Assembly (NCBI RefSeq): GCF_963678225.1
Contig: NZ_OY782764.1
Span: 1,679,001-1,743,000, forward strand
Direction: 5' to 3'
Length of the DNA stretch: 64,000 nt
DNA from: an uncultured Cohaesibacter sp.
Lineage (GTDB): Bacteria > Pseudomonadota > Alphaproteobacteria > Rhizobiales > Cohaesibacteraceae
Shown: positions 12,007-30,135 of the stretch, one piece after another
Layout: every line of letters begins with the position of its first letter
Numbering within the stretch: position 1 is the first letter of the stretch
Notes under the pieces: generated by a model
Seen by the model: only the letters and a program-made list of their open reading frames with translations
What the model was told of the DNA's origin: nothing
Databases searched by the model: none
Translations under genes and position numbers: made by a program

Positions 12007-12153
12007 ATCAAAAACTCTTGCGTTGAGTGGCCCGGAGTAGAATGACGCGGGTCAGCATAAGTGGAATTATACGGGCAAAGAGGCGAGAGTCGCTGGCAAC
12101 GGCGCGGCGGCTCTCTGGCTTCTCTTTGCATGAGCGGAAAAAGGCAATATCCG

Positions 12154-13434: not shown

Positions 13435-13437
13435 GGG

Positions 13438-13968: not shown

Positions 13969-14100
13969 GACAGCCTCACTTTTTGTTCATTCCTTCAAGA
14001 CGGGGGACGAAAGAATGATGCGGTTTATCGTTGAAGTGCGCAAGCCTTGGTGACCATCTTGCAGGTGAAAGAGTGCGCTTGAGATTGGGCCGCGTTGGGC

Positions 14101-14131
14101 GGACTGCCGCAAGGGGGGCTTGCGACAGTCC
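14101..14131 (-). other. Intercistronic hairpin behind the TRAP binding-protein gene
   Basis: GGACTG-C-CGCAAG and CTTGCG-A-CAGTCC pair over 13 positions with a single C-A mismatch around a GGGGG loop. No T-run follows on the minus strand, so this looks like an mRNA-stabilising or partial-attenuation element rather than a full terminator. It begins 17 nt after the binding-protein gene. Confidence 0.65.
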
Positions 14132-14147
14132 TGATGCATGCTCTTGA

Positions 14148-15128: not shown

Positions 15129-15157
15129 TTGTTCCTCCCAGTCATTGTCGATGGGGA

Positions 15158-15862
15158 TCAACCGTCCCCGGGTTCAAATAGTTCAGGTTTTTCTTGAGCG
15201 ATCTGCGGCAGATCTTTCAGGATGCGCCGCAAGTGGGACCGCATGGCGGCCTCCGCCGCTGCGGCGTCGTGGACAGCAATTGCCGCAACGATGGCATTGT
15301 GCTGTTCCAGCAATTTCGCGGTATTATGCTCAACCAGCGAGAGATAGCGGACACGGTCCATCTGCGCCTTCTGACTTTGAACAACAGCCCAGGCGCCCAT
15401 TTTGTGGGCCACCTCGGCCAAGGTCTGATGAAACAGTTCATCCAGCGCAATGAAAGCATCCGGATCATCCGTTTCCACGGCCCGTTTCTGATGTTCGATC
15501 TGGTTTGCCAGCTCGCGGTCCACCGCCGCATCATGGGTTTCAGCCACAAGGCGCACAATGTCGGCTTCGATTGCCTCGCGCACAAAGCGCGCATCCATGA
15601 CGGCGTTTGGGGAGATCTTTTTCACAAAGCTGCCTCGGTTGGGCAGGATATCGAGCAGACCGTCATTGGCCAGCTTGATAAAGGCCTCCCTCACCGGCTG
15701 GCGCGAAACAGCAAAGGCCGAGGCCCATTCTGCCTCTGACATGCGGCTTCCCGGCGTCAGTTGGTTGCGGATGATCTGTTGGCGCAAAATCCCGTGGATC
15801 TGCGGTGCCACCGGCAAACGCAAATCAATTTCCTGTTGCTCCAACCCATCAAGCAGCGACAT
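15158..15862 (-). CDS. GntR family transcriptional regulator (FadR/FCD subfamily)
   Basis: Winged-helix repressor, 234 aa. The N-terminal DNA-binding domain (LRQQIIRNQLTPGSRMSEAE, then VSRQPVREAFIKLANDGLLD) is followed by an all-helical FCD effector domain with metal-ligand-like histidines in DELFHQTLAE and MRSHLRRIL. ATG 15862 is preceded by GGAGGA at 8 nt. First gene of the TRAP-uxuB unit and divergent from uxuA, so it probably controls both, like UxuR/ExuR with a hexuronate or 2-keto-3-deoxygluconate effector (inference). Confidence 0.9.
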   Translation of the reverse strand: MSLLDGLEQQEIDLRLPVAPQIHGILRQQIIRNQLTPGSRMSEAEWASAFAVSRQPVREAFIKLANDGLLDILPNRGSFVKKISPNAVMDARFVREAIEADIVRLVAETHDAAVDRELANQIEHQKRAVETDDPDAFIALDELFHQTLAEVAHKMGAWAVVQSQKAQMDRVRYLSLVEHNTAKLLEQHNAIVAAIAVHDAAAAEAAMRSHLRRILKDLPQIAQEKPELFEPGDG

Positions 15863-15882
15863 AAGCTATCCTCCAATTGCTA

Positions 15883-15908
15883 ACCACCATACCGGCATAC
15901 CACCATAC
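15883..15908. promoter_or_regulatory. Direct-repeat operator candidate between gntR and uxuA
   Basis: ACCACCATAC occurs at 15883-15892 and again at 15899-15908, a 16-bp period, separated by CGGCAT. On the minus strand this gives repeated GGTATG units. It lies 20-46 bp upstream of the gntR start and within the divergent gap, so it is a candidate site for the GntR protein. Confidence 0.45.
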
Positions 15909-16085
15909 TTGTCAACCGGCTTTGGCTGTGATAAAGATTGATATAACGCGGCAACAGAGCGCAGAGGCATTGGACCATATGCGCATTGCGGCCGGATAAA
16001 ATGCGCCGGAGGAACCGGTCATGCGCTCCTTGTCCTTGCGAATCTGGGCAGTTGGGCGCCAAGAACAACATACGGGAGACGGCAA

Positions 16086-17285
16086 ATGCGTCAGACGTGG
16101 CGGTGGTTCGGTCCTCAGGATCGAGTTGGGATTGAGGACATGCTTCAGGCCGGTGTGGAAGGGGTCGTCAGCGCCCTGCATCACATTCCAACCGGCGACA
16201 TCTGGAGCCCGGAAGAAATTGCGGCGCGCCAGCAGCTCATTGCTCGTAAGAGGGATGGCACGCCTTCCGGTCTGGCTTGGGAAGTCGTCGAAAGCCTGCC
16301 GGTTTCTGAAGATATCAAGCAGCAGAAGGGCAACTGGCGCACCCATATCGAGAATTACAAGCAAAGCATGCAGCATCTGGCAGACGCCGGTATCAAGGTC
16401 ATTTGCTACAATTTCATGCCCGTATTGGACTGGACGCGGACCGATCTGACCTACTGCCTCTCGAGCGGTGCCACCTGCATGCGGTTCGATCTGATCGATT
16501 TTGCAGCCTTTGATCTGTTCATTCTCGAACGGGCCGGGGCGCACGGGGATTTCCCCGACGATGTGATCGAAGAAGCCAAGGGTCGCTTCGAGCGCCTTGA
16601 TGATGCCGGTCGCGAGTTGTTGGCGGGCTCGATCATCTACGGCCTGCCCGGAGATGCCGAGGCACCTTCCATGGCAAATGTGCGGGCCAACCTTGCTCAG
16701 TATGACAATATCTCCCAGGAGCAACTACGCAGCCATTTTGTTGCCTTTCTGGAAGAAGTGGCTCCAGTGGCCCAAACCCTTGGCATGCGCCTTTGCTGCC
16801 ACCCGGATGATCCTCCGTTCGGACTCCTGGGCCTGCCACGCATCATGTCCACTGAGGCGGACTACCAATATATGATGGATGCCGTCGATATTCCTGCCAA
16901 TGGCATCACGCTTTGCTCCGGCTCACTGGGCGCGCGCCCGGATAATGATTTGCCCGGCATGATGAAACGCCTTGGCGATCGGGTTCATTTTCTGCATTTG
17001 CGCAACGTGGCTCTGGAAAGTGACGCGATCATGGGCTCCTTTTATGAATCGGAACATCTGGGCGGACATGTGAACATGGTTGCCCTCATGCAGGCGGCTC
17101 TGGATGAAGAGGCAAGACGCAAGGTGGAAGGTCGCGATGACTGGTCGATACCCATGCGGCCCGACCATGGCCTCGATATTCTTGATGACCAGAAGCGCAA
17201 GGCCCAGCCGGGCTATCCTGCCATTGGGCGCCTGAAAGGGTTGGCAGAACTGCGTGGTATCATGGCGGCTCTTTCGTCACGTTGA
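16086..17285 (+). CDS. uxuA: D-mannonate dehydratase
   Basis: Dehydrates D-mannonate to 2-keto-3-deoxy-D-gluconate in hexuronate catabolism; soluble TIM-barrel enzyme, 399 aa, full length. Characteristic segments are MRQTWRWFGPQDRV at the N-terminus, HPDDPPFGLLGLPRI from 239, FLHLRN at 302-307, RPDHG at 358-362 and GYPAIGRLKG near the end. GGGAGA precedes the start. It is transcribed away from the gntR-TRAP-uxuB unit and ends in a terminator at 17334. No uronate isomerase (uxaC) or kdgK/eda is in the window, so those steps are encoded elsewhere. Confidence 0.97.
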   Translation: MRQTWRWFGPQDRVGIEDMLQAGVEGVVSALHHIPTGDIWSPEEIAARQQLIARKRDGTPSGLAWEVVESLPVSEDIKQQKGNWRTHIENYKQSMQHLADAGIKVICYNFMPVLDWTRTDLTYCLSSGATCMRFDLIDFAAFDLFILERAGAHGDFPDDVIEEAKGRFERLDDAGRELLAGSIIYGLPGDAEAPSMANVRANLAQYDNISQEQLRSHFVAFLEEVAPVAQTLGMRLCCHPDDPPFGLLGLPRIMSTEADYQYMMDAVDIPANGITLCSGSLGARPDNDLPGMMKRLGDRVHFLHLRNVALESDAIMGSFYESEHLGGHVNMVALMQAALDEEARRKVEGRDDWSIPMRPDHGLDILDDQKRKAQPGYPAIGRLKGLAELRGIMAALSSR

Positions 17286-17487: not shown

Positions 17488-18666
17488 GTGACACCCGTCG
17501 AAAATATTGAGCATCTCGAGATCGAGCATTTAGAGGTCGGATTTGATATCCCAGCCCGCCCGGGCATGAAGGAAGCCGATATTCAGACCCCGTGTCTTGT
17601 TCTTGATCTTGATGCATTGGAACGGAACATTGCCAAGATGGGAGCCTATATCAAGGCCCATGGCATGCGCCACCGCTTGCATGGCAAGATGCATAAATCG
17701 GTCGATATCGCTCTGCTGCAAATGGAAATGGGCGGCGCCTGTGGCGTCTGTTGCCAGAAGGTTTCCGAGGCGGAAGTCTTTGCTCGTGGCGGCATTTCCG
17801 ATGTTCTCATCTCCAATCAGGTGCGAGATCCACACAAGATAGACCGCCTTGCTTGCTTGCCCAAGCTGGGGGCACGTACCATCGTGTGCGTTGATGCTCT
17901 GGAAAATGTGGACGAACTTTCCGAAGCCGCACGCGCCCATGAAACAGAAATCGAATGTCTGGTCGAGGTGGATTGCGGGGCAGGACGCTGTGGTGTCTCA
18001 ACCCCTCAGGACGTTCTGATATTGGCCAAAGCCATCAATAAGGCCTATGGGCTCAAATTCTCCGGTCTGCAGGCCTATCAGGGCTCCATGCAGCATCTGC
18101 CAGCCTATGCGGATCGTAAGGCCAAGATTGATGCGGCCGTTCTTCTGGTCAAAGACTGTCTGTCGCTGCTGGACGAAGAAGGGCTGGCCTGTGATATCGT
18201 CGGCGGTGGTGGAACTGGCTCCTACTATTTCGAATCCACCTCGGGCGTCTACAACGAGCTGCAATGCGGTTCCTACGCCTTCATGGATGCGGACTACGGG
18301 CGCATTCTCGATGAGGATGGCAAGCGTATTGATGAGGACGAATGGGAGAATGCCCTGTTCCTGCTCACCTCCGTGATGAGCCATGTGAAGACAGATCGAG
18401 CCATCGTGGATGCGGGCCTCAAGGTACAGTCTGTCGATAGCGGCCTACCGGTCGTTTATGGCCGGGATGATGTAACCTATCTGGAATGCTCCGATGAACA
18501 TGGAACCATCGCCGACCCTAACGCAGTTTTGAAGATCAACGAAAAGCTGCGCCTTGTGCCGGGCCACTGCGATCCGACCTGCAATATCCATGACTATTAT
18601 GTGGGTGTGCGCAAAGGGGTGGTTGAATGCCTCTGGCCGGTGTCTGCCCGTGGCAAGGCCTATTAG
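17488..18666 (+). CDS. PLP-dependent D-threonine/3-hydroxy-D-aspartate aldolase family protein
   Basis: Fold-type III (alanine-racemase N-domain) aldolase, 392 aa. Such enzymes split D-3-hydroxyaspartate or D-threonine into glycine plus glyoxylate or acetaldehyde. The PLP lysine should be K67 in RLHGKMHKS, and the divalent-metal pair is in PGHCDPTCN (H360, D362). GTG starts at 17485 and 17488 both follow AAGGA; I use 17488. The lead EVGFDIPARPGM-EADIQTP closely resembles BhcC of the beta-hydroxyaspartate cycle, but no bhcA, bhcB or bhcD gene is here. It converges on the sigma-54 activator gene, so it may or may not belong to that regulon. Oddity: the N-terminus repeats IEHLE twice. Confidence 0.85.
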   Translation: MTPVENIEHLEIEHLEVGFDIPARPGMKEADIQTPCLVLDLDALERNIAKMGAYIKAHGMRHRLHGKMHKSVDIALLQMEMGGACGVCCQKVSEAEVFARGGISDVLISNQVRDPHKIDRLACLPKLGARTIVCVDALENVDELSEAARAHETEIECLVEVDCGAGRCGVSTPQDVLILAKAINKAYGLKFSGLQAYQGSMQHLPAYADRKAKIDAAVLLVKDCLSLLDEEGLACDIVGGGGTGSYYFESTSGVYNELQCGSYAFMDADYGRILDEDGKRIDEDEWENALFLLTSVMSHVKTDRAIVDAGLKVQSVDSGLPVVYGRDDVTYLECSDEHGTIADPNAVLKINEKLRLVPGHCDPTCNIHDYYVGVRKGVVECLWPVSARGKAY

Positions 18667-18715
18667 GCGAGACGAACCGGACTGCAAAATAGCAAACGGG
18701 CGAGTGGCCCCATGT

Positions 18716-20629
18716 TTAATGAGGCACGATGCCCTGCGGTTTGCTGTCCTTGCCAAGCCAGCGTTTGACGGTGTTGCGGTCAATCGATAGCCGCTGTGCC
18801 GTCTTGCTGATATTGCAGTTTTCCTGCTTGAAAATCTGGTTTACCTTTGCGGCAATCATCTCGTCAAGGGTTGCCCCCTCCAGCAGACTTTCAGATGCCG
18901 CGCCATCGCTCGATATCCGCCCCATATGATGGGTTTCCGAGGAGAGGAGCGGCGTGTCGAAATCATGCAGGCTTTGCAGCGTGGCAAACTTCTCGGCGCA
19001 ATTCTCAAGCTCGCGCACATTGCCCGGCCAGCTATGGTGTCGCAATTCCTTGAGCAATTTGCCAGACAGCGGCGGCACTGGAATAGATTGCAAATGGCAG
19101 GCCTTTTCAAGAAAACGGGTGAATAGCAGTTCCGGGTCTCCCTTGCGGTCGCGAAGAGGGGGGATCTTAAGATCCAGCACATTGAGACGATAGAACAAAT
19201 CGGCCCGCATCCGGCCCGCCTTGATGGCTTCAAGGGGGTTCTTGTTGGTCGCTGCAATGATGCGCACCTTGATCGGGATGACCTTGTTGTCGCCAATCCG
19301 CATGATTTCGCCCGTTTGTAAGGCACGGAGCATTTTGGCCTGAAGGAAGACATCCATTTCTGTCAATTCATCAAGAAACAGCGTGCCTTCATGGGCCAAT
19401 TCGAACAGGCCGATCTTGCCCGCTCGGGACGCTCCGGTGAAGGCCCCCGGCGCATAGCCAAACAACTCGCTTTCCAAAAGATTACCGGGCAGTGCGGCGC
19501 AGTTCACGGCCACAAAAGGGCCGTTTGACAGCGCTCCAGCATTATGGATCGACTGGGCAAACAGCTCCTTGCCGGTTCCCGTTTCACCCACAATCATGAT
19601 GTTGCTGGCCGTGCGGCTATAAAGCTGGGCCATCTCCACCAAACGCTTCATCTCCTGACAATGATAGATGATATGCTCGAAGGTATATTTGGCGTAAAAG
19701 CCGCTTTCGCTCAATTTTTTGCGGATCAGATTGCCTGCATCCTGAATTTTCTGCACCGGCTGGAAGAGAATGACCGAGGCATTGTCGGAAAGCTTCTCCG
19801 ATGAGACGGGGATATGATCCAGCGCCAGCTTGTCGTCATGGCAGGTGACGATCATGTTTCGGGCATGGGCTTTCTTGCGGAAGGCCTTGCTGAGTTCGGG
19901 CGTATTGAAGAAACCGGCAATATTGGCTCCAAGCAGATCATCGCGCTCCTGTCCCAATATCGTGCAGCCCTGTCTGTTGATCTCGTCGATCAGGCCTTCA
20001 CTATTGACAAGAACGGCGCCGTCCCGCGTGCAGTCGAGTACGGCCTCGAGCTTCTTTTCGGCTAGAAAATAGCGGTTCAGATTTTTATAGACCAGCATGG
20101 CGCGTTCAAACGCATCAACGATGGTTTCCATGCTGGATTCGATCAGATAGGCGTTAAGCCCCTTGGACTTGGCCCACTGGAAGGCAACGGCGTCGCCGAT
20201 CACCACATCCGGCTTCCAGTGCACCAGCGTGTCCATCCGCTCCTGAAAGCTCTCCTTCTCGCGCAATTCGAACGAACGATAATTGCGCGATAGAATGGTG
20301 CAAATGGGGGAAACAAGATTGATGAGGGGGGCAAAGCCGACAATGCCCACCCGGCTTGTTTCTGTCGTCTCCTTATAGACGAAGGCAAGCGTGCGCTGCA
20401 CAGAGGCCTCCACCTCGATCACCTCGACATCGAGCGAACGGCGGATAAGACGTGCGGTTCCTCCGCGGCTGATGATGATCTTGGCTCCGTCATCAAGCGC
20501 GCGCTTGGCTGCCTTCACGCCCTGATGCAAATCGCCCAGATAGGCTTTGGCCGGGTAATTGGATGTATCGATGATGCTCTGCGCCTTGATGCGGATCTGC
20601 TCAAAAGGCGCGATAAACGCAATAACCAT
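18716..20629 (-). CDS. Sigma-54-dependent activator, PrpR type
   Basis: Enhancer-binding protein of 637 aa from ATG 20629. A PrpR N-terminal sensor domain spans about residues 1-180, a PAS-like segment 190-290, and the AAA+ sigma-54 interaction domain starts near 315 with Walker A GETGTGKE at 348-355, GAFTGA at 395-400 and LFLDE at 417-421. A Fis-type HTH closes the protein ([20 protein letters not shown]). An in-frame GTG-type extension to 20716 is unlikely. It is divergent from a transporter operon that carries a consensus -24/-12 promoter at 20800 and an inverted repeat at 20696. The effector is unknown; PrpR itself senses 2-methylcitrate. Confidence 0.95.
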
Positions 20630-20681
20630 GACCTGATCTCCCCCTCTGGTCGCAAGCAAGTATGCGGGGGGAGGGGCGAAA

Positions 20682-20725
20682 TTGCAACGAACTGCTGATG
20701 CGATATGCATCAACAATTAGTGCAA
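20682..20725. promoter_or_regulatory. Candidate enhancer (upstream activating sequence) for the PrpR-type activator
   Basis: TGATGC-GATAT-GCATCA (20696-20712) is a 6+6 inverted repeat, and an outer pair TTGCA (20682) and TGCAA (20721) is nearly concentric with it. Its centre is about 100 bp upstream of the -24/-12 element at 20800, the usual distance for sigma-54 enhancers, and it is close to the activator's own start. Confidence 0.6.
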
Positions 20726-20799
20726 ACCGCCACAGCTGCGCATTAGGCTATCTTCTTACTTTCAGAAAAAAGAAACTTATTTTCAATCGGTTAGGCGAG

Positions 20800-20815
20800 T
20801 GGCACGCGAATTGCA
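20800..20815 (+). promoter_or_regulatory. Sigma-54 (-24/-12) promoter of the ABC/kinase/aldolase operon
   Basis: TGGCACGCGAATTGCA fits the consensus TGGCACG-N4-TTGCA at every fixed position with correct spacing. It points at the binding-protein gene (start 20884), giving a predicted 5' leader of about 55-60 nt, and faces away from the gene of the sigma-54 activator. Confidence 0.92.
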
Positions 20816-20883
20816 AAAATTTCGTTAAGGCGCACCAAGAACGTCATTGCTTTTACGAAGTTGAAATGAGAGGAGACAACTAC

Positions 20884-22503
20884 ATGAAAAAGGATCTTTT
20901 CAAAGTCCTTTTGCTCGGGCTTACAGTGCTCGGGCTGACACCGCTGCAAAGCGGCCAGGCATCGGCCGAAGATGGTCAGGTGCTCAATATTGCCCACCCC
21001 GTTTTACAGCAGAACTGGTCGCCCCTTCAGGGAGGAGGACACGCGGCACGCTGGCAATCTCTTAGCTGGGCTGCCCCAATGTATTTCGACAAGGACGGCA
21101 AGCTGACCCCTTACGTTCTTTCAAGCGTCGAGTCCGATGACAGCTATGTCAACTGGACCCTGCACGTCAATCCCGATGCAGTCTGGTCTGACGGCTCCAA
21201 GATCACGGCCGAAGATGTGGTCGGCACATGGAATCTGTCCGCCCGCCCGGCAACCAAGCACGCCCGCGTCAACCTGTTCCTAGGTGGCGTTGAGGGCTTT
21301 AACGACGTGGTCGTCGGCAAAGCAAAAGACATGACCGGCCTGTCGGTCACCGATGACGCAACGGTGAGCGTCAAGCTTGCAAGCGCCGACCCGATCTTTG
21401 ACCAGAAAATCGCAACGGCGCTGATCGCACCGGTGAAGATCTCACAGGCTGAAGATGAAAATGGCAATGAAAAGTCCGATTGGTGGATGCCGCAGAATGG
21501 CGTCGTTGTCTCCGGTCCTTTCATGCCGGAAACCATGGACCTTGACCAAGGTGTTCTGACACTCGTACCGAACCCGAACTTCTTTGGCCCGAAACCAAAA
21601 CTTGAAAAGATCGTCCTGACCACTGTGGCTGATGCTAGCACAGCAACCCTGATGCTTAAACGCGGCACGATGGATGCCCACACCGAGCTCATCACCCCGA
21701 CGATCATTCAGGACCTTGGACCAGACTTCCTTGGTGGCCCGGCGCTCGCCAAAGGCCAGCAATTCTGGATCAACGCCAAGAAACCTCCGATGGACGACAT
21801 CAATGTGCGCAAGGCATTGATCATGTCTGTCAATCCTGAAGAGCTTGCTCTTGCCGCCTTCCCGGATGGTCCATTCACTGCAGCATCCCAGATCCTCAAC
21901 AAGGTTCCTGGTGTGGACCCGGACTTCAAGAAATATCCATATGATCCGGAAGCTGCCAAGGCTGCTCTTGCTGCATCCAAATATAAGGATGCCAACCGCC
22001 TGCCAAAAATCATGTTTGTCGGCATTTCCACCCCGACCCATGAAGCCGCTGCCCAGTATATTGCCGAACAATGGCGCAAGATTCTTGGCATTCAGGGCAT
22101 TGAAATGAAACCTGCCATCGAAACCTACTCCGGCCCGGATCAGAAGAGCGTCCAGATCTTCCGCGACGATGTCGGCACACGCGTTCCCGATGCGGTTTCC
22201 TACCTGATGGGCTCGATCTATTCGAAGTCCGGTAACGCCCGTAACAAGCTGGGTGGTTACAAAAATGACGAGATTGATGCCAAGCTCGAAGAAGCATCCG
22301 TCAAGGGTGTAAAAGATCCGGACCGCATCAAACTTGCTCAGGAAGCACAGCGTCTCTTCCGTGAAGACTGGACCTACATTCCTTACTACTACGACGTGAT
22401 GTCGAAATGGGCCATGCCATGGGTCATGAATTTCGACAAGAACGATGACTGGCAGGTCATCGAACCCTGGAATGTAACCATCGACGAAGCAAAACGTCCG
22501 TAA
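20884..22503 (+). CDS. ABC transporter substrate-binding protein, family 5 (peptide/opine type)
   Basis: Periplasmic receptor, 539 aa from ATG 20884 with GAGAGGAGA 8 nt upstream. A signal peptide ends near SGQASAEDG. Family-5 landmarks are DNWTLHVNPDAVWSDG-like wording (here NWTLHVNPDAVWSDGSKITA), the domain hinge VKKAL-type segment NVRKALIMSVNPEELA, and EDWTYIPYYYDV near the C-terminus. It heads the sigma-54-driven operon and is followed by a terminator-like hairpin before the permeases, which should favour its overproduction. Family-5 proteins bind peptides but also oligosaccharides, opines and glycosylated compounds, so a sugar or amino-sugar derivative is as plausible as a peptide given the downstream enzymes. 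Confidence 0.92.
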   Translation: MKKDLFKVLLLGLTVLGLTPLQSGQASAEDGQVLNIAHPVLQQNWSPLQGGGHAARWQSLSWAAPMYFDKDGKLTPYVLSSVESDDSYVNWTLHVNPDAVWSDGSKITAEDVVGTWNLSARPATKHARVNLFLGGVEGFNDVVVGKAKDMTGLSVTDDATVSVKLASADPIFDQKIATALIAPVKISQAEDENGNEKSDWWMPQNGVVVSGPFMPETMDLDQGVLTLVPNPNFFGPKPKLEKIVLTTVADASTATLMLKRGTMDAHTELITPTIIQDLGPDFLGGPALAKGQQFWINAKKPPMDDINVRKALIMSVNPEELALAAFPDGPFTAASQILNKVPGVDPDFKKYPYDPEAAKAALAASKYKDANRLPKIMFVGISTPTHEAAAQYIAEQWRKILGIQGIEMKPAIETYSGPDQKSVQIFRDDVGTRVPDAVSYLMGSIYSKSGNARNKLGGYKNDEIDAKLEEASVKGVKDPDRIKLAQEAQRLFREDWTYIPYYYDVMSKWAMPWVMNFDKNDDWQVIEPWNVTIDEAKRP

Positions 22504-22516
22504 GGACGGCGAACCT

Positions 22517-22553
22517 GGACGGGTCGTGGTGGTCTCACTTCCCGTCCTTTTTT
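22517..22553 (+). terminator. Intra-operon terminator-like hairpin between binding protein and permease
   Basis: GGACGGG and CCCGTCC form a 7-bp GC-rich stem with a 17-nt loop, followed by six T. It lies 14 nt after the binding-protein stop and 26 nt before the permease start. Partial read-through is expected because no new promoter is evident. Confidence 0.7.
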
Positions 22554-22578
22554 CCCGAATTCGCAAGGATGACTTGAT

Positions 22579-23535
22579 ATGGGACGCTACATCTTATTCC
22601 GACTTCTGAAGTGGATTCCCTCGGTTTTTATTCTTCTTCTGTTAATCTACGCTCTCGTGTTCTTTGGAGCAGGCGACCCGATCAAGCTTATCTTCCTGCA
22701 GGCTCCGGGTGATGTGGCGTATGATCCGGACAGGGTTGAAGCCATAAGGGATGCCGCAGGCTTGAACCGGCCGTTTCTGGTTCAGTTCATGGACTATCTA
22801 GGCAACATTGCGCACGGCAACTTCGGCAATTCGCTGGTTTCCGGTCGCTCGGTCAACTCAATGATCAGTGCAGCGCTTCCGGTGACCCTCAAGATCGGGC
22901 TCACCGCGATTTTCCTGCTCTCCATCGTTGGCATCATTCTGGGCGTGATAGCCGCGCTCAATCAGAACAAGCTTCTTGATAACCTGATCGTGGGCTTTGC
23001 TCTCATCGTTTGGGGCATTCCGGTGTTCGTTGCCGGTCCGCTGATCATCGTCTTTCTCGTGCTGGTCATGGATATGGACGTGCCCTATGGCTGGTCTGGC
23101 CTGTTCAGTTTCAAGGTGATTGTCCCCCTTCTGGTCCTCGGGCTCAACCCCATGGCGCTGATCATTCGACAGGCGCGCGCCGGTGTGCTTGAGGTGCTCA
23201 GCGAAGACTATGTGCGCACCGCCCGCGCCAAGGGCATCCCGAATTATCAGGTCGTGGTCAAACACATCATGCGCCCCGTACTGACGCCTGTTGTCAGCCA
23301 GATCGGCCTTCTGGTGATTGCCACGCTCAACAACTCCATTCTCATCGAAAAGGTTTTCGGGCTGCCCGGCCTTGGGCGCCTTACCGAAACCGCAATCAAG
23401 ACCTCGGACTATCCGGTCATTCTCGCGATCGTGTTGATCTTCTCGACGGTGGTCATGGCCTCCAACCTGCTGGTTGATATTTCCTATCCGCTGCTTGACC
23501 CCCGCGCGGCAGCCAAAAAGACAGGAGACGAATAA
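22579..23535 (+). CDS. ABC transporter permease, DppB/OppB type
   Basis: First membrane subunit of the importer, 318 aa with six hydrophobic segments. The inner-membrane assembly motif EDYVRTARAKGIPNYQVVVKH and the C-terminal VFGLPGLGRLTETAI are typical. AAGGATG lies 8 nt before ATG 22579. Its stop codon overlaps the next start by one base, so the two permeases are translationally coupled. Confidence 0.95.
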   Translation: MGRYILFRLLKWIPSVFILLLLIYALVFFGAGDPIKLIFLQAPGDVAYDPDRVEAIRDAAGLNRPFLVQFMDYLGNIAHGNFGNSLVSGRSVNSMISAALPVTLKIGLTAIFLLSIVGIILGVIAALNQNKLLDNLIVGFALIVWGIPVFVAGPLIIVFLVLVMDMDVPYGWSGLFSFKVIVPLLVLGLNPMALIIRQARAGVLEVLSEDYVRTARAKGIPNYQVVVKHIMRPVLTPVVSQIGLLVIATLNNSILIEKVFGLPGLGRLTETAIKTSDYPVILAIVLIFSTVVMASNLLVDISYPLLDPRAAAKKTGDE

Positions 23536-24488
23536 TGACGGACAATACGCTTGAGCTGCAACAGGAAGAGAAGCAGTTCAGTCTGGCCAAGGACGCCTTT
23601 GACCGGCTGATCGCCAACAAGCTCGCCGTGATCGGCATGCTGCTGGTCGTGTTCCTGTTCTTCATCGCCATTTTCGGCCCCTATATTACGCCTTACGACT
23701 TCCTGTCGCAGGATCTGCAGGCCCGCAATCAGGCGCCAAGCTGGGCTCATTGGTTTGGCACCGACGATCTGGGGCGCGACATCATGAGCCGCGTGATCTA
23801 TGGCGCAAGAACTGCCGTTATCGTGGCCTTCTCGACCACCTTTCTCAGTCTGATCATCGGCATTTTCATGGGCTCGCTTGGCGGATATTTCGGCGGCAAG
23901 GTGGATGCTTTCATCGTCTGGCTCATCGACATCACCATGTCGGTGCCCTCTCTGCTGCTGGTGATCGTCATCAACGTTTCGATGAAGCCACGGCTGGTTA
24001 ACTGGATGGATGAGCAATTCCTGCTCACGGGCAACTCTTTCTATCGCAATACCATTCTGGTGGACTTCGTGTTGGTGTTCGGCTCGCTGGCCCTTATCAA
24101 ATGGCCAAAGGCGGCCCGCATCATTCGCGGTCAGATCATGTCGGTGCGCAACAAGAACTATGTTCTCGCCGCCGAGGCCATCGGTGTGCCAACGCCCAAG
24201 ATCGTCTGGAAATATGTCATTCCGAACTCAATCGGTCCGATCATCGTCTATATCAGTGCTGCCCTTGGGGAAGCCATGGTGTTTGAATCGTCCTTCTCCT
24301 TCCTAGGGGTTGGCGTGCGTCCTCCAATCCCCAGTTGGGGCAACATGATTTCGGATGGATTACGCGTTTGGCAGCTCTATCCGCACATTCTCGCAGCGCC
24401 TGCCGCAGTGCTTGCGTTGGTCACCATCGCCTTCAGTTTCCTTGGCGACGGTCTCAACGATGCGCTTAACCCACGGCAATGGAAATAG
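23535..24488 (+). CDS. ABC transporter permease, DppC/OppC type
   Basis: Second membrane subunit, 317 aa. GTDDLGRDIMSRVIYGARTA and the EAA loop RNKNYVLAAEAIGVPTPKIV mark the OppC family. Between TM segments it has an extra stretch of about 40 residues (SMKPRLVNWMDEQFLLTGNS onward), longer than in E. coli DppC; this could extend the periplasmic surface contacting the receptor. AGGAGA precedes the start inside the dppB-like gene. Confidence 0.94.
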   Translation: MTDNTLELQQEEKQFSLAKDAFDRLIANKLAVIGMLLVVFLFFIAIFGPYITPYDFLSQDLQARNQAPSWAHWFGTDDLGRDIMSRVIYGARTAVIVAFSTTFLSLIIGIFMGSLGGYFGGKVDAFIVWLIDITMSVPSLLLVIVINVSMKPRLVNWMDEQFLLTGNSFYRNTILVDFVLVFGSLALIKWPKAARIIRGQIMSVRNKNYVLAAEAIGVPTPKIVWKYVIPNSIGPIIVYISAALGEAMVFESSFSFLGVGVRPPIPSWGNMISDGLRVWQLYPHILAAPAAVLALVTIAFSFLGDGLNDALNPRQWK

Positions 24489-24519
24489 AGACACAACGAA
24501 CAGCTAAAGGGAGGGCGCT

Positions 24520-25539
24520 TTGACCAAACTTTTGGAAGTGAACAATCTGCATACGCGCTTCAAGGTGCGCAATGGCTATCTTTACGCAGTGAACGGTGTT
24601 TCCTTCACGCTCGACAAGGGGGAAATGCTCGGTGTGGTCGGTGAATCCGGGTGCGGCAAGAGCGTATCCATGATGAGCCTGATCAGGCTGTTGCCGCCTG
24701 CGGCCCAGATCACCCAAGGCGAAGTTTTGCTGGAAGGCAAGGATCTGGCCAAGGCCAGTGCTGGCGAAATCAACATGGTGCGCGGCTCCAAGGTCGGCAT
24801 GATCTTTCAGGATCCGATGACCTCGCTTAATCCGTTCATGAAGATCGGCGCGCAGCTCTGCGAAGGCATCATCTATCACAAGAAGATGAGCCGGGCAGAC
24901 GCGATGAAACAGGCGGCCAAATATCTCGATCTGGTGGGTATTTCCAACAGCGAGCATCGCCTGCATGAATATCCCCATCAGCTCTCGGGCGGCATGCGTC
25001 AGCGCGTGATGATCGCCATGGCGCTGCTGGGCGAGCCCGAGCTGGTGATTGCCGACGAGCCGACCACGGCCCTTGATGTGACCATTCAGGCCCAGATCGT
25101 GGAACTGGTCAAGGAACTGCGCGAAAAGCTCAACATGTCGATCATCTGGATCACCCATGACCTTAGCCTGCTGGCTGGCATGGTGGATCGCATCATGGTC
25201 ATGTATGGCGGCAGCGTGGTGGAAGAAGCGCCACTGGATGAAATCTACAAGAGCCCGCGTCACCCCTACACCATCGGGCTGCTCAAATCGATTCCGAGCA
25301 TCAAGACCGAGGCTGGCAGTCGGCTCCCTTCCATTGCGGGGGCTCCGCCAAATCTGTTTGTGGAGCCGCAAAGCTGCCCCTTCGCCGCGCGCTGCGCCTA
25401 TCGCAAGGAGCGTTGCACCAAGGAGATACCACCACTGGAGCCGGTCTCCGGCGAAGGCGCCAACCCGCACCATCGCATCGCCTGCTGGGTGGATGTAACC
25501 AAAGAGACTGCTGAGCCCAAAGAGGGGGGGATGCTATGA
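24520..25539 (+). CDS. ABC transporter ATP-binding protein, DppD/OppD type
   Basis: Cytoplasmic ATPase, 339 aa, starting at TTG 24520 with AAGGGAGGG about 8 nt upstream; no ATG offers a better start. Walker A is GESGCGKS, signature LSGGMRQR, Walker B VIADEPTTALDV. The C-terminal oligopeptide-transporter domain has the conserved cysteines CPFAARC and CTKEIPPL. Its last codons overlap the next gene (ATGA), so the two ATPases are coupled. Confidence 0.95.
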   Translation: MTKLLEVNNLHTRFKVRNGYLYAVNGVSFTLDKGEMLGVVGESGCGKSVSMMSLIRLLPPAAQITQGEVLLEGKDLAKASAGEINMVRGSKVGMIFQDPMTSLNPFMKIGAQLCEGIIYHKKMSRADAMKQAAKYLDLVGISNSEHRLHEYPHQLSGGMRQRVMIAMALLGEPELVIADEPTTALDVTIQAQIVELVKELREKLNMSIIWITHDLSLLAGMVDRIMVMYGGSVVEEAPLDEIYKSPRHPYTIGLLKSIPSIKTEAGSRLPSIAGAPPNLFVEPQSCPFAARCAYRKERCTKEIPPLEPVSGEGANPHHRIACWVDVTKETAEPKEGGML

Positions 25540-26561
25540 CGCGTGCAGCCAAGCAGCCACTGGTCAAGGTGAAAAACCTTGTCAAATATTTCCCCATCAA
25601 GATCGGCGCTTTCGGAAGTGAGAAAGCGGTCGTGCATGCCATCGATGACGTCAGTTTCGATATATTCAAGGGCGAGACCCTGGGGCTCGTAGGCGAGTCA
25701 GGATGCGGCAAATCGACAACTGGTTTCACGATCCTGCAGATCTATCGCTCCACGTCCGGAAGCGTCGAATTTGAAGGGGTTGATCTGGCCTCCCTGTCCA
25801 AGCAGGAGTTGCGCGCCATGCGCAAGCGGGCCCAGATTGTCTTTCAGGATCCCTATTCAACGCTCAATCCGCGCATGACCATCGGTGAAGCGCTCGCGGA
25901 GCCGATGAAGGTTCATAAAATCTGCCCTGAAAATGAGATACAAGGCCGGATTGCCCAGCTCATTCGCGATGTCGGGCTCAATCCCAATGTGTCCAATCGC
26001 TACCCGCATGAATTTTCCGGGGGGCAGCGACAGAGGATCTGCATTGCCCGTGCTCTTGCGTGTGATCCGGAATTCATCGTCTGCGACGAGCCGATTTCCG
26101 CGCTTGATGTGTCCATTCAGGCCCAGATCATCAACCTGTTGATGGATATTCAAGAGAAATACAATCTCACCTATCTCTTCATCGCCCACGATCTGGCCGT
26201 TGTGCGCCATATCAGCGACAGGATTGCGGTGATGTATCTGGGCAAGATCATGGAGATCGCCGAGAAGAAGGATCTGTTCAAGCGGCCGTTGCATCCCTAC
26301 ACCAAGGCGCTGCTCTCGGCTGTACCGGAAGCTGATCCGGATATCGAGCGCCAACGCCAACGGATTATCCTCAAGGGGGATGTTTCCAACGCCATTGATC
26401 CGCCAAGCGGCTGCCGGTTCCATCCGCGCTGTGCCTACGCAACAGATGCCTGTGCGCAATCCGTGCCGGAACTTGAGGACTATGGCGATGGACATCAGGT
26501 CGCCTGCCTGCGTCTGGACGAGATTGCCATGGAAGAAAAACTGGAAACTGAAGACGCCTGA
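25536..26561 (+). CDS. ABC transporter ATP-binding protein, DppF/OppF type
   Basis: Second ATPase, 341 aa. Walker A GESGCGKST, signature FSGGQRQR, Walker B FIVCDEPISALDVS, and the C-terminal GCRFHPRC / DACAQSVPEL cysteine motif. It completes a five-gene peptide-type importer. A 180-nt gap with a GC-rich hairpin (26615-26646) follows before the sialidase-fold gene. Confidence 0.95.
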   Translation: MTRAAKQPLVKVKNLVKYFPIKIGAFGSEKAVVHAIDDVSFDIFKGETLGLVGESGCGKSTTGFTILQIYRSTSGSVEFEGVDLASLSKQELRAMRKRAQIVFQDPYSTLNPRMTIGEALAEPMKVHKICPENEIQGRIAQLIRDVGLNPNVSNRYPHEFSGGQRQRICIARALACDPEFIVCDEPISALDVSIQAQIINLLMDIQEKYNLTYLFIAHDLAVVRHISDRIAVMYLGKIMEIAEKKDLFKRPLHPYTKALLSAVPEADPDIERQRQRIILKGDVSNAIDPPSGCRFHPRCAYATDACAQSVPELEDYGDGHQVACLRLDEIAMEEKLETEDA

Positions 26562-26743
26562 CTTTGGCTCTTGAGCGATCCCGATGGTCTCATTTCGCAG
26601 GACCAAACTGACAACGCGGGCGGTAGACCAACCGCTTTCGCCCGCGCGTACTACCCGTTTATGCCTTTTCGCCTCCAATTATGCCGAGCATCTTGCCTGG
26701 CTTCTTGTGTGGCGCCGATCAGATAGCAAAGTCAGGTAAAGCC

Positions 26744-27817
26744 ATGAAAATAGTTGAGAGCAGAGCCATTCCGACCCCATGCCTGAGCAACCATGCATCC
26801 AACCTTCTGGAGCTGGAGAGTGGTGATCTTCTTTGCACCTGGTTCGGTGGCAGCATGGAGGGGTCGTCCGATATCTCCATCTATCTTTCGCGCTTTGATC
26901 ATGCTGCAAAGACATGGAGCGATGCGGTCAAGATGAGCGATGATGCCAACCGCTCCGAGCAGAACCCTGCCCTGTTCCGCCATCCTTCCGGACAGATCTG
27001 GTTGCTTTATACGGCTCAGCTCAAGACGGATCAGGGAACCGCCATCATACGCCTGCGCCGCTCGGATGATGAAGGGCAGAGCTGGGCCCCGATTGAAACA
27101 CTGTTTGCGCAGGAAGGCACCTTCATTCGCCATCCGCCAGTGGTCAACCCCGATGGCAAGCTGTTGCTGCCGATCTGGTTTTCCAGCATGAAAAACGCCT
27201 TTGGCGATGATCGTTCACTGGTGCAGATTTCCGATGATGGTGGGGTCAGTTGGCGCCTCCAGGACGTGCCCCATAGTGAGGGCTGCGTGCATATGAATAT
27301 CCAGCCCAGCTGCAAGGTGGCTTTCTATCGCAGCCGCAGGGCGGACAATATCTTCCGGTCCGTTTCTGACGACGGCGGCCTGACATGGTCTGCGCCGGAG
27401 CCAACGCCTCTACCCAACAATAATTCGTCCATTCAGGCTGCCGAGTTGTCCGATGGCCGGTTGCTTATCATCTACAACCATATCAGTGCTGCCGGTCGCG
27501 ACTGTGAAAGTGCGGTGCCGCCTTGGGTGCAGGATAAGGAAGCCTTTCTGGCCGAATGTGACATGACCGAAAATAGCGCCATCTGGGGTGTGCCGCGCAA
27601 TCCGCTCATCATTGCCAGCTCGTCCGATCTGGGAAAAAGCTGGAAAGAGGAGCTGGTCGTCGAAGAAGACGCTCACCTTCTGTCGGCTCATGACAAGAAG
27701 GGTGCCTTCCGGGGGGATTATTCCTACCCCTCTATCATCGAGACATCCGATGGGCGCCTCCAGATCAGCTATTCCTACCTGCGCGACTATATCAAACACG
27801 TCACGCTGAGCATGTGA
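26744..27817 (+). CDS. Sialidase-fold (BNR/Asp-box) protein, cytoplasmic
   Basis: Six-bladed propeller protein of the BNR_2/neuraminidase-like group, 357 aa. Four Asp-boxes (SxDxGxxW) are visible at residues 107-114, 163-170, 208-215 and 293-300. There is no signal peptide, so it should act in the cytosol on an imported compound. The N-terminus has an R-x-I-P-like RAIPTP where sialidases carry their arginine-triad FRIP motif, and SYPSIIETSDGRLQISYSYL near the end is typical of the family. It lies between the importer genes and the kinase, suggesting it opens or hydrolyses the transported substrate. True sialidase activity is unproven. Confidence 0.82.
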   Translation: MKIVESRAIPTPCLSNHASNLLELESGDLLCTWFGGSMEGSSDISIYLSRFDHAAKTWSDAVKMSDDANRSEQNPALFRHPSGQIWLLYTAQLKTDQGTAIIRLRRSDDEGQSWAPIETLFAQEGTFIRHPPVVNPDGKLLLPIWFSSMKNAFGDDRSLVQISDDGGVSWRLQDVPHSEGCVHMNIQPSCKVAFYRSRRADNIFRSVSDDGGLTWSAPEPTPLPNNNSSIQAAELSDGRLLIIYNHISAAGRDCESAVPPWVQDKEAFLAECDMTENSAIWGVPRNPLIIASSSDLGKSWKEELVVEEDAHLLSAHDKKGAFRGDYSYPSIIETSDGRLQISYSYLRDYIKHVTLSM

Positions 27818-27848
27818 GTGTGGCTGAAAAAGGGGAATGGCAGCATAG

Positions 27849-27879
27849 CTGAAGAAGGCCTGAAGAAGAGCTGAAGAAG
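27849..27879 (+). repeat. Three 11-bp-spaced CTGAAGAAG direct repeats
   Basis: CTGAAGAAG occurs at 27849, 27860 and 27871, one helical turn apart, with spacers GC and AG. A degenerate copy CTGAAAAAG is at 27824. They lie in the 97-nt gap just upstream of the kinase start. Confidence 0.8.
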
Positions 27880-27914
27880 ACAAGAACGGGCTTGGAACAT
27901 TGTGGGGGGAAAGG

Positions 27915-29186
27915 GTGAAACAGGATCAGAAACTGGCGATCATCGCAGATGATTTCACCGGCGCAGGGGATTCCGGGGTGCATTTCTCGCGGCTTGGCAA
28001 GCAGATCAAGTTGCTCCTTCATTTCCCGTCCCTGCATGACGAAGGACTGCTTGAAGGGAATGTCTCCATCAATTCCGAAACCCGTTTTCTGGCTCCGGAT
28101 GCGGCAGCGGCCACAGTGGCCCATATGATCGGCATTTGCCGCCAGAAGGGATATGAGCGCTTTTACAAGAAGATCGACTCCACCATGCGCGGCAATCCCG
28201 GCGCCGAAATCGAGGCCGCCCTTGATGCAACCGGCAAAGCCGCCGCGCTCATCTGCACCGCCATGCCCGAAACCGGACGCACCTGCCGCGAGGGAACCAT
28301 CTATTTGTCTGGCGTGCCTCTGCATGAGACAGATATTGGCAAAGACCCTTTCCACCCGCTCTCGACCTCTAACATTGCCAGCATGCTCGGCGAGCAGTCG
28401 CGCCTTGTCACCGCAGGGCTGACGATTGCCGATTGCGAAGCCGGAGTGGACGCGCTGGTCTCTTTCATCAAGGGGCATGTTAAAGCCGGAGCCCGGCTGA
28501 TCATTGCCGATGCGGTCAATGAAACCCATTTGGCAACGCTGGCCAGAGCGGCAGTGCAGGCCGACTGCCTGCCCGTGGGAGCAGGGGGCTTTGCCAGAGC
28601 GCTGGCGGCTTGCGAGGGAACACCACAAAGCAAATCCACCAGACGGCAGGGCGCTATCCTGGATGGGCCGCTGTTGGCCATCGTCGCCAGCCTTGCCAAA
28701 CCATCGCTGCGACAGGCGGACGCCGCTGAAAAGCTGGGAGACTACCAATCCATTATTGTTCCTCCCGATGCCAAGCCGCAGGACGTCGCCGGTCTCTGCC
28801 GCACACAGCTTGAGATGAAAGGGGGCAGATCTGGCGACATCCTGCTGCGTATGGATAACAGCAGCGTCGCCGCGCGGGTAAGCAAAGAAGAAGGTGCTCG
28901 CATCGCCGCTCTCGTCGGACAGGTTGCGCTATACCTCTGTAAGACCCAAAATTTCAAAACCGTATTCAGCACAGGGGGCGAAACAGCGATTGCCGTTGCC
29001 TCCGCGCTTGGCATTGACGCCATTGATCTTGCCGACGAGCTGCTGCCGGGCGTCGTGCTCGGGGCCTGCCGGTCCGACAAGGTGGATGTGACATGGTTCA
29101 TCTCCAAGGCTGGTAGCTTTGGCGATGATGCCGTGCTGCTCGATATTCAGGCCCAAACGCGCAACCCCATCAGAAAAGCTCAATGA
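27915..29186 (+). CDS. Four-carbon acid sugar kinase family protein (DUF1537)
   Basis: ATP-dependent kinase of the family containing D-threonate, D-erythronate and 3-oxo-tetronate kinases, 423 aa from GTG 27915, which follows a GGGGGGAAAGG run. The N-terminal substrate domain opens with IIADDFTGAGDSGVHF and has KKIDSTMRGNPGAEI; the C-terminal nucleotide domain has FSTGGETAIAVASALG. In the family these correspond to the acid-sugar pocket and the ATP site. It is followed immediately by the DHDPS-family gene (stop and next start 1 nt apart), so a phosphorylated or parallel acid-sugar step is expected. The specific substrate cannot be read from sequence. Confidence 0.9.
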   Translation: MKQDQKLAIIADDFTGAGDSGVHFSRLGKQIKLLLHFPSLHDEGLLEGNVSINSETRFLAPDAAAATVAHMIGICRQKGYERFYKKIDSTMRGNPGAEIEAALDATGKAAALICTAMPETGRTCREGTIYLSGVPLHETDIGKDPFHPLSTSNIASMLGEQSRLVTAGLTIADCEAGVDALVSFIKGHVKAGARLIIADAVNETHLATLARAAVQADCLPVGAGGFARALAACEGTPQSKSTRRQGAILDGPLLAIVASLAKPSLRQADAAEKLGDYQSIIVPPDAKPQDVAGLCRTQLEMKGGRSGDILLRMDNSSVAARVSKEEGARIAALVGQVALYLCKTQNFKTVFSTGGETAIAVASALGIDAIDLADELLPGVVLGACRSDKVDVTWFISKAGSFGDDAVLLDIQAQTRNPIRKAQ

Positions 29187-29187
29187 G

Positions 29188-30135
29188 ATGGAAGACCTTC
29201 GCATAGTAAAGCAGGACATGCCGCATGTGGCACCAGAGACAACCGGCCAGCCCCATAAGGCCGAGGCTTATGTTGCCATTATCACCTGTTTCAACCGAGA
29301 TGACACGATCAACTATTCAGCGGTGAGAAATCAGGTCCGGCGGCAGATCAGCTTCGGCAACAATATTCTCGTGGGGGACACACAAGGGGATTTCACCTGC
29401 TTGACCCATGCGGAGAAAGTGCGCCTTTGCGCCGAAATCGTTGAAGAAGCAGACGGGCGTGTCAAGGTCCTGGCCAATATCGGCATGCCCTCCACCTATC
29501 AGTCCATTTTGGTGGGTAAAGATATTTCAGGGCTCGGAGTGGATGGGGCAACCGTGCTCGCCCCCTATTTTGCCGATTGCCCGGATGAGGATGTTTTCCT
29601 GCATTATAGTAAGGTCGCCGACAGCTTGCAGATACCGATTTATCTTTACAATGCGCCTGCCATCACCATGCGGCCTCTTTCGGCAGAGGTGGTTGGGCAA
29701 CTGGCGTCCCACGGCAACATCAAGGGCATCAAGGATAATAGCTCCGACGGAGCCCGAATGCAGGCCTATCTGGATATCGCAGCGGACAAGGCGGATTTTG
29801 TGCATTATGTGGGCACGGATTCCCTCATCTGTGAGGCGCTTTCCCATGGGGCTGCAGGCTGCATGTCTGATCTGGGGAATATCCTGCCCCGAACGCTCAA
29901 TAATCTCTGCCTCACCTTTGCCAATGGCAGCAGCAAGGAGGCGCTGAAATGGCAATCCCTGCTTTCGGAACTGCGCGCCGACCTGCTGGCATTGGGGCCC
30001 ATGGCCCTCTGGGTCAAACAGCTTCTCTATTTGATGGATAACAGTGTTGGTCTCGGGCGTCAGCCCTTTCCTCGTCCCAACAGCGCACAGGAAGAAGCCC
30101 TGTGCGCCATCGTCGAGAAATACCTGATCGTGTGA
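29188..30135 (+). CDS. Dihydrodipicolinate synthase / N-acetylneuraminate lyase family aldolase
   Basis: Class I TIM-barrel aldolase, 315 aa from ATG 29188. The catalytic tyrosine is in YLYNAPA (Y154) and the Schiff-base lysine in KGIKDNSSD (K182). The usual GTTGE substrate loop is replaced by GDTQGDF, so it is not a housekeeping DapA; catabolic members cleave or dehydrate 2-keto-3-deoxy acids, hydroxyproline derivatives or sialic acids. Last gene of the sigma-54-driven run. With a sialidase-fold protein upstream, a nonulosonate lyase role is possible, but no NanE or NanK homologue is present. Confidence 0.88.
   Translation: MEDLRIVKQDMPHVAPETTGQPHKAEAYVAIITCFNRDDTINYSAVRNQVRRQISFGNNILVGDTQGDFTCLTHAEKVRLCAEIVEEADGRVKVLANIGMPSTYQSILVGKDISGLGVDGATVLAPYFADCPDEDVFLHYSKVADSLQIPIYLYNAPAITMRPLSAEVVGQLASHGNIKGIKDNSSDGARMQAYLDIAADKADFVHYVGTDSLICEALSHGAAGCMSDLGNILPRTLNNLCLTFANGSSKEALKWQSLLSELRADLLALGPMALWVKQLLYLMDNSVGLGRQPFPRPNSAQEEALCAIVEKYLIV

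Follow-up and report, generated by a model that had tools for sequence, protein, structure and literature searches.

Which compound is degraded by an operon that joins a peptide-type importer to a sialidase-fold protein, a kinase of the DUF1537 family and a class I aldolase? The question is raised by a locus in a stretch of 64,000 nucleotides, called the window here, from an uncultured Cohaesibacter sp. (contig NZ_OY782764.1, positions 1,679,001 to 1,743,000) whose genome comprises 2 contigs and 4.94 Mb. We find that the operon is a genuine, widely conserved catabolic set. Its substrate is possibly a seven-carbon (C7) 2-keto-3-deoxy-aldarate, most likely 3-deoxy-D-lyxo-heptulosaric acid (Dha), which would be degraded via D-threonate to dihydroxyacetone phosphate (DHAP); we rate this reading just short of an even chance. 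The locus has the following features (window coordinates; ABC, ATP-binding cassette; DHDPS/NAL, dihydrodipicolinate synthase/N-acetylneuraminate lyase).

18716..20716, minus strand: PrpR-type sigma-54-dependent activator (PrpR_N, PAS and AAA+ domains; Pfam/NCBIfam), divergent from the operon and kept in relatives
20800..20815, plus strand: -24/-12 promoter TGGCACGCGAATTGCA, the sole exact match in the window
20884..22503, plus strand: family-5 substrate-binding protein (SBP_bac_5, PF00496; Pfam), ATG at 20884, N-terminus signal-peptide-like by eye
22579..23535, plus strand: ABC permease, DppB/OppB type (NCBIfam)
23535..24488, plus strand: ABC permease, DppC/OppC type (NCBIfam)
24520..25539, plus strand: ABC ATPase, DppD type, with oligo_HPY (Pfam)
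25536..26561, plus strand: ABC ATPase, DppF type, with oligo_HPY (Pfam)
26744..27817, plus strand: BNR_2 sialidase-fold protein, the propeller (Pfam E 9.8e-67), presumably cytosolic, predicted entry enzyme
27900..29186, plus strand: DUF1537 kinase (SBD_N/NBD_C; Pfam), start at TTG 27900 or GTG 27915
29188..30135, plus strand: DHDPS/NAL-superfamily class I pyruvate aldolase (Pfam E 5.1e-46)

Pfam and NCBIfam bear out every gene class that an earlier note on this DNA had assigned by reading it (activator, importer, BNR_2, DUF1537, DHDPS). The aldolase ATG at 29188 immediately follows the kinase stop. The start of the propeller is placed at ATG 26744 and not at 26681 because of the alignment with relatives; the true start of the activator may lie inside the listed open reading frame (ORF). 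The propeller is 89% identical to its counterpart in C. haloalkalitolerans.

We infer the substrate, the directions of the reactions and the chemistry of the propeller. Once the PrpR-type activator and sigma-54 have induced the operon, the importer with the family-5 binding protein (SBP5) would take up an ulosaric acid compound. The sialidase-fold protein would free the acid from a glycoside, or open or interconvert its ring form. The DHDPS-family aldolase would cleave the C7 acid into pyruvate and the C4 semialdehyde 2,3-dihydroxy-4-oxobutanoate, which an iron-containing alcohol dehydrogenase (Fe-ADH) from a second locus would convert to D-threonate. The DUF1537 kinase would then form D-threonate 4-phosphate, and a PdxA protein, also encoded at the second locus, would oxidise and decarboxylate it to DHAP.

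If a pyruvate aldolase acts first and an aldehyde reductase then gives a C4 aldonate, the substrate must be a C7 2-keto-3-deoxy-aldarate. When C1-C3 of Dha leave as pyruvate and C4 is reduced, the hydroxyl groups read from C7 stand left and right, which is D-threonate (derived by hand from the nomenclature). As D-threonate is one of four possible stereoisomers, this match is informative, not proof. Carbon count, redox and stereochemistry fit the route from Dha via D-threonate to DHAP, which we regard, at slightly less than even, as the simplest explanation. Two other groups of substrates were rejected. 3-Deoxy-D-manno-octulosonic acid (Kdo) and N-acetylneuraminic acid (Neu5Ac) have C5 and C6 sugars as aldol products, not a C4 acid. 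C7 ulosonic acids of the 3-deoxy-arabino-heptulosonic acid (DAH) type would give erythrose, whose stereochemistry and oxidation state do not match those of D-threonate. The earlier note had placed phosphorylation before cleavage; the D-threonate kinase and D-threonate 4-phosphate dehydrogenase of the best-matching relatives fit after an aldol cleavage, and the order in the note is probably reversed. Its idea that a sialidase-like substrate is imported and opened by the propeller remains sensible; the nine-carbon nonulosonate that it suggested gives no C4 acid and is dropped.

Articles are cited here by PMC number. Dha is a component of rhamnogalacturonan-II (RG-II; PMC12168206). It also occurs in the scales and thecae of prasinophytes and their relatives, most of them marine (PMC10762512), a source that would suit a marine bacterium. 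GH143 is a sialidase-related hydrolase family for Dha (PMC6811678). An 'openase' to which YhcH-like proteins are related makes cyclic ulosonic acids available to an aldolase of the DHDPS family, and YhcH of Escherichia coli gives NanA open-chain sialic acids, with no help for a substrate that is largely open (PMC8141875). Since YhcH feeds open-chain ulosonic acids to the aldolase, the YhcH-like proteins encoded next to relatives of the propeller fit the Dha scheme.

The operon was compared with the surroundings of the propeller gene in other genomes. At E 1e-30, a search of the order found the propeller in 32 of 297 genomes, the window's own included, and from a collection scan the best 80 of at least 587 relatives were taken. 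Together, 30 of the 31 other order-search genomes (a 4.6-kb contig of G282 was left out) and the 80 collection relatives gave 110 loci, and 108 non-redundant ones (numbered with L below) after removal of two duplicates with identical propeller sequence. These are not independent because many are close relatives, and some are short contig ends. Family labels stem from profiles built on the loci themselves, and the DHDPS label spans at least two sub-types. Three loci (L083, L089, L127) lack a propeller label because an over-long propeller ORF overlapped another and was filtered out. The genera with the propeller include Rhizobium, Bradyrhizobium, Azospirillum, Burkholderia, Ralstonia, Pectobacterium, Dickeya, Pantoea, Klebsiella, Gilliamella, Pseudomonas, Bacillus and others.

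Near the propeller, we found DHDPS in 85, DUF1537 in 84, Fe-ADH in 82 and PdxA in 79 of the 108 loci. All four families were present in 63 loci, three in 14, two in 15, one in 6 and none in 10. The control was 20 fixed-offset stretches, one each from 20 of the 30 order-search genomes and none from the 80 collection loci; DHDPS occurred in one of them, and DUF1537, Fe-ADH and PdxA in none. The co-occurrence on which the earlier note had staked its reading is thus present: DUF1537 and DHDPS both lie near the propeller in 74/108 loci. One contig labelled Candidatus Competibacteraceae (L066) encodes a propeller 71% identical to the query with Fe-ADH, DHDPS, PdxA and DUF1537 alongside. A YhcH-like protein is encoded in 23 of the loci. 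Among the permease labels, SSS occurs in 49 loci, SBP5 in 32 and TTT in 15, and 16 have none of these three. Permeases typical of acids thus adjoin these enzymes (SSS, TTT, and SLC13/CitMHS in E. coli). 'Peptide-type' names no more than the family of the importer: relatives pair the same enzymes with SSS, TTT or SLC13 permeases.

In E. coli MS 69-1 (L178, record 3605390-3614369), the cluster lies between glnS and nagE. RefSeq annotates dtnK, D-threonate 4-phosphate dehydrogenase, Fe-ADH, a DHDPS family protein, TerC, a sialidase family protein, YhcH and an SLC13 permease; only the first two are annotated beyond family level. At least 80% of the stretch from Fe-ADH to the permease is held by 1,042 of 5,426 complete E. 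coli genomes, and at least 80% of the propeller gene (Klebsiella query) by the same number.

The Fe-ADH and PdxA steps of the proposed route are encoded at the second locus, outside the view of the earlier note. This locus lies on contig 1 of the same genome at about 25.8-35.3 kb (L154/L155) and carries Fe-ADH, TctB-TctC-TctA, DHDPS, PdxA and DUF1537, with no propeller. We compared 18 same-genus genomes, the window's own included: 11 have the propeller and 14 the second-locus Fe-ADH. The latter is present in 11/11 propeller-positive and 3/7 propeller-negative genomes; one of the four genomes with neither is only 64% complete. In this sample, the core enzymes occur without the propeller, and the propeller never without the core. 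The chance of such nesting is 0.011 if the genomes were independent, which they are not. TctBCA genes with DHDPS and PdxA stand in 13 of 14 second-locus surroundings (from 13 genomes); DUF1537 was not seen in L199, and the order is changed in L205 and L206. The remaining one, L207, surrounds another Fe-ADH of G297 (a second copy, 50% identical) and has DHDPS, DUF1537 and PdxA, and no Tct genes. The operon and the second locus presumably work together.

Zhang et al. 2016 reportedly worked on DUF1537. The window kinase has both PF07005 and PF17042 and thus belongs to the DUF1537 kinase superfamily. Its best NCBIfam model is D-threonate kinase despite a score below the cut-off, and the same holds for the kinases of L041, L054, L092, L097, L110 and L122. 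In Pectobacterium (L073), the kinase passes as D-threonate kinase (617 bits, cut-off 450) and PdxA as D-threonate 4-phosphate dehydrogenase (NF002891, 685 bits, cut-off 583). The Gilliamella kinase also passes (468 bits); its PdxA, at 556 bits, falls narrowly under the dehydrogenase cut-off. DUF1537 and PdxA are fused in single ORFs in eight loci (L079, L083, L089, L102, L123, L125, L127, L137) of Ralstonia, Burkholderia, Paraburkholderia, Cupriavidus, Trinickia, Herbaspirillum and Caballeronia.

The aldolase belongs to the DHDPS/NAL class I superfamily: PF00701 is found, and the Schiff-base Lys184 and catalytic Tyr156 are invariant in 23 aligned sequences (ORFs of doubtful extent in L047, L053, L059, L060 and L117 were left out). 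It stays under the NCBIfam equivalog cut-offs of dapA (150.7/206), nanA (87.7/382) and NanA PRK04147 (113.2/281). The altered loop described in the earlier note is real and reads GDTQGD in the window copy. Among the 85 DHDPS-positive loci, 53 have GTNG[ED], 25 GTTG[ED] and 7 neither, the Cohaesibacter ones being among the last; the GTTG[ED] type includes L050, L054, L118 and the Rhizobium loci L115, L120 and L124. As the window aldolase and the second-locus copy share 44% identity, the two may differ in substrate range.

For the propeller, an AlphaFold model (pLDDT 90.9) resembles GH33 structures in fold, and nearly all of the 50 best Foldseek matches are sialidases, e.g., GH33 1eus with a TM score of 0.72 at 15% identity. 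We aligned 27 propeller sequences (L007, L010 and L028 left out) and, separately, 31 chosen diverse members, in which H18, D44, E73, R130, H184, R197, R286 and Y329 are invariant. A HMMER alignment to NanB/NanC spans the middle blades only; it sets H184 at the position of the catalytic Glu, and R197 at that of the second Arg. Of the GH33 Arg triad, Arg197 is aligned and Arg130 and Arg286 are candidates only. From order and motif, D44 would be the acid/base, R286 the third Arg and Y329 the nucleophile. By its residues, the protein appears to be a divergent sialidase relative and not a GH33 member. No signal peptide is evident by eye, in agreement with the earlier note.

The regulatory features described in that note, a consensus -24/-12 promoter with a divergent PrpR-type activator, hold as well. 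No exact match other than TGGCACGCGAATTGCA at 20800-20815 exists in the whole window; it lies 84 bases ahead of the SBP gene, and a like site was found in 6/6 Cohaesibacter loci read. TGGCA[C/T]GCGAATTGCA is at the same place in five of these (L035-L039), and the sixth (L040) has the related site TGGCACGGCCATTGCT. The promoter precedes dppB by 1,779-1,781 bases in each of these six loci and by 1,779 in the window. Pleomorphomonas-type loci (L041, L042, L043) have similar sites at less constant distances. When one mismatch is allowed, 5 sites are found in the window vs 3.7 expected by chance. Because this count is no better than chance, the promoter case rests on the exact match, its placement and its conservation. 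The activator has the PrpR_N domain and reaches 307.8 bits with the PrpR propionate-activator model TIGR02329, under the cut-off of 499.2.

Several observations weigh against a route from Dha through D-threonate. The Cohaesibacter operon itself has neither Fe-ADH nor PdxA. The window kinase scores 221.6 bits with the D-threonate kinase model NF047819 (cut-off 450); for the second-locus kinase, a threshold of 1e-40 left no NCBIfam match. The second-locus PdxA has 292 bits with NF002891 against a cut-off of 583; it scores higher with general PdxA models, as do the PdxA proteins of L054, L097 and L110, and among the PdxA proteins sampled only that of Pectobacterium passes the D-threonate-dehydrogenase cut-off. 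The aldolase slot is apparently not one orthologous family, since it holds at least two DHDPS sub-types. Three aldolases of the GTTG type (L050, L081, L118) are only 22-24% identical to that of the window. This may reflect the substitution of one enzyme for another with equal activity, or it may signal different substrates. Because the aldolases fall into two sub-types and several PdxA proteins score better with general models, we rate Dha, and the fuller claim given further below, slightly lower than we otherwise would, and the D-threonate conjugate and vitamin B6 rivals slightly higher. None or only one of the four enzymes is nearby in 16/108 loci, 13 of them in stretches of at least 19 kb. 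Pantoea and one Bradyrhizobium (L088, L094, L099, L141) have only SSS-propeller-(YhcH)-SDR; their remaining enzymes are perhaps encoded elsewhere, or the substrate may be handled differently. The SDR, which is common in propeller loci, has no role in the scheme. In the propeller, the alignment sets the invariant His184 where NanB/NanC have the catalytic Glu, and no N-terminal FRIP-like motif or Arg is seen (N17-H18 stand there); FRIP is the N-terminal arginine motif of GH33 sialidases. With His at the Glu position and no FRIP-type Arg, hydrolysis by the propeller is not assured. Finally, the ecological fit is post hoc.

The best surviving alternative is a sub-case of the Dha route and overlaps with it in probability: the propeller would be an anomerase, lactonase or lyase that acts on the free ulosaric acid. 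A glycosidase is our first choice for the propeller, and we consider this rival to it somewhat unlikely. His in place of the sialidase Glu would agree with it, as would the permeases of relatives, which are typical of small acids. NanM is likewise a propeller protein. It is known as a sialate anomerase (PMC8141875). However, Asp44, Arg197, Arg286 and Tyr329 are invariant in the 31 members in sialidase-like order, and 23 loci already encode a YhcH-like protein. Moreover, 3 same-genus genomes have the core enzymes without the propeller, as expected if it is specific for a conjugate.

Less probable, and by some way, is a propeller that splits a D-threonate conjugate (an ester, ether or glycoside), with the aldolase and Fe-ADH processing the other half. 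The kinase and dehydrogenase assignments need D-threonate alone, and the two or more DHDPS sub-types in the aldolase slot, like the genomes that pair the propeller with a transporter and SDR alone, would be accommodated. However, two catabolic arms are needed here, while a single C7 acid accounts in one line for aldolase, reductase, kinase and PdxA, and the YhcH-like protein is left unexplained. We know of no common natural D-threonate conjugate, although no search for one was made, and count this against it.

Vitamin B6 salvage, in which DUF1537 and PdxA would recycle 4-hydroxythreonine into pyridoxal phosphate synthesis, is very improbable. DUF1537-PdxA pairs are discussed in this way for an E. 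coli strain that carries the cluster (PMC12928451, citing Thiaville 2016), and several PdxA proteins of the cluster exceed the cut-off of the general PdxA model TIGR00557 and fall under that of the D-threonate model. We set it aside as the aldolase, Fe-ADH, propeller, YhcH-like protein and dedicated importer are unexplained, and the Pectobacterium and E. coli pairs carry D-threonate assignments. The weakest, catabolism of a nonulosonate or other sialic acid with phosphorylation before cleavage, as in the earlier note, draws on the sialidase fold, the DHDPS/NAL superfamily and the YhcH-like protein of relatives, but a C9 acid minus pyruvate leaves a C6 product, unexpected for a D-threonate kinase and PdxA, and we give it hardly any weight.

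The interval 17488-30135 of the earlier note holds for its operon part; the gene at 17488-18666 inside it is a mere neighbour. This gene (17443/17488-18666) encodes a BhcC-type 3-hydroxy-D-aspartate aldolase (NCBIfam 728.6 bits, cut-off 690). We rejected it as an operon member because it does not adjoin the activator in L040, L041 and L043; L042 had too little room to tell. A hexuronate-type cluster adjoins at 10546-17285, with genes for a fructuronate reductase-like protein (567 bits vs NCBIfam cut-off 603), a TRAP transporter, a GntR-like regulator and a UxuA mannonate dehydratase, and suggests a uronate-catabolism neighbourhood. Farther off, at 40038-41444, an acylating aldehyde dehydrogenase is encoded which is closest to the sulfoacetaldehyde dehydrogenase SauS (480 bits vs cut-off 600). 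Rfam and tRNA scans of the window gave no matches.

A fuller claim is somewhat more doubtful than the Dha reading itself: an undescribed Dha pathway may occur in alpha-, beta- and gammaproteobacteria as well as Bacillota (and 1,042/5,426 E. coli), with the cytosolic His-for-Glu propeller as a new ulosarate glycosidase and Dha as a natural source of D-threonate. Our literature search found neither a bacterial route for the Dha carbon nor a paper joining heptulosarate and threonate; most subscription journals were outside its coverage, and prior publication is possible. Dha forms part of the most complex polysaccharide of plants and also of the scales of algae, and many plant-associated bacteria, as well as roughly one in five complete E. 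coli genomes, carry a related operon. If true, the route would assign a role to genes that the E. coli record names only as 'sialidase family', 'dihydrodipicolinate synthase family' or 'iron-containing alcohol dehydrogenase', and the retention of D-threonate enzymes by bacteria would be accounted for. An orphan gene set becomes testable by reconstitution with few enzymes.

Among the closest known systems are the clusters of E. coli BEN2908 ('GR 6') and Sinorhizobium meliloti with COG4692, DapA, Fe-ADH, OtnK/DtnK, PdxA and a NanQ-like protein (PMC12928451). The same gene set was thus already noted there; in contrast to our proposal, the available part of that article names no substrate or pathway and ties DUF1537/PdxA to B6. 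D-threonate catabolism itself proceeds by DtnK and PdxA2 (Salmonella Q8ZRS5 / P58718, cited in PMC12928451). The Pectobacterium pair passes both models and the E. coli cluster is annotated alike, whereas here the two are joined by an importer, propeller, aldolase and Fe-ADH, and the window members are under the cut-offs.

With sialic acid catabolism (NanT/SiaT, NanH, YhcH, NanA), the operon and its relatives share the sialidase fold, the YhcH-like protein (23/108) and the DHDPS/NAL superfamily. They differ in that the product is apparently a C4 acid and not N-acetylmannosamine (ManNAc), the active site of the propeller is altered, and no signal peptide is evident. The GH143 Dha hydrolase of Bacteroides thetaiotaomicron is likewise a sialidase-related propeller (PMC6811678), and action on Dha is predicted here. 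Unlike our protein, it is an RG-II enzyme with a five-fold propeller, and the profile match to 5mqr is weak and local (E 0.0025 / 0.02). This hydrolase is BT1020.

The glucarate route GarL-GarR-GarK consists of an aldolase, a tartronate semialdehyde reductase and a glycerate kinase. Aldol cleavage, semialdehyde reduction and a kinase follow in the same logical order in our scheme, which would be its C7 counterpart. GarR and GarK belong to other reductase and kinase families than the enzymes here, and the proposed route differs in starting from a C7 instead of a C6 acid and in ending in DHAP via PdxA.

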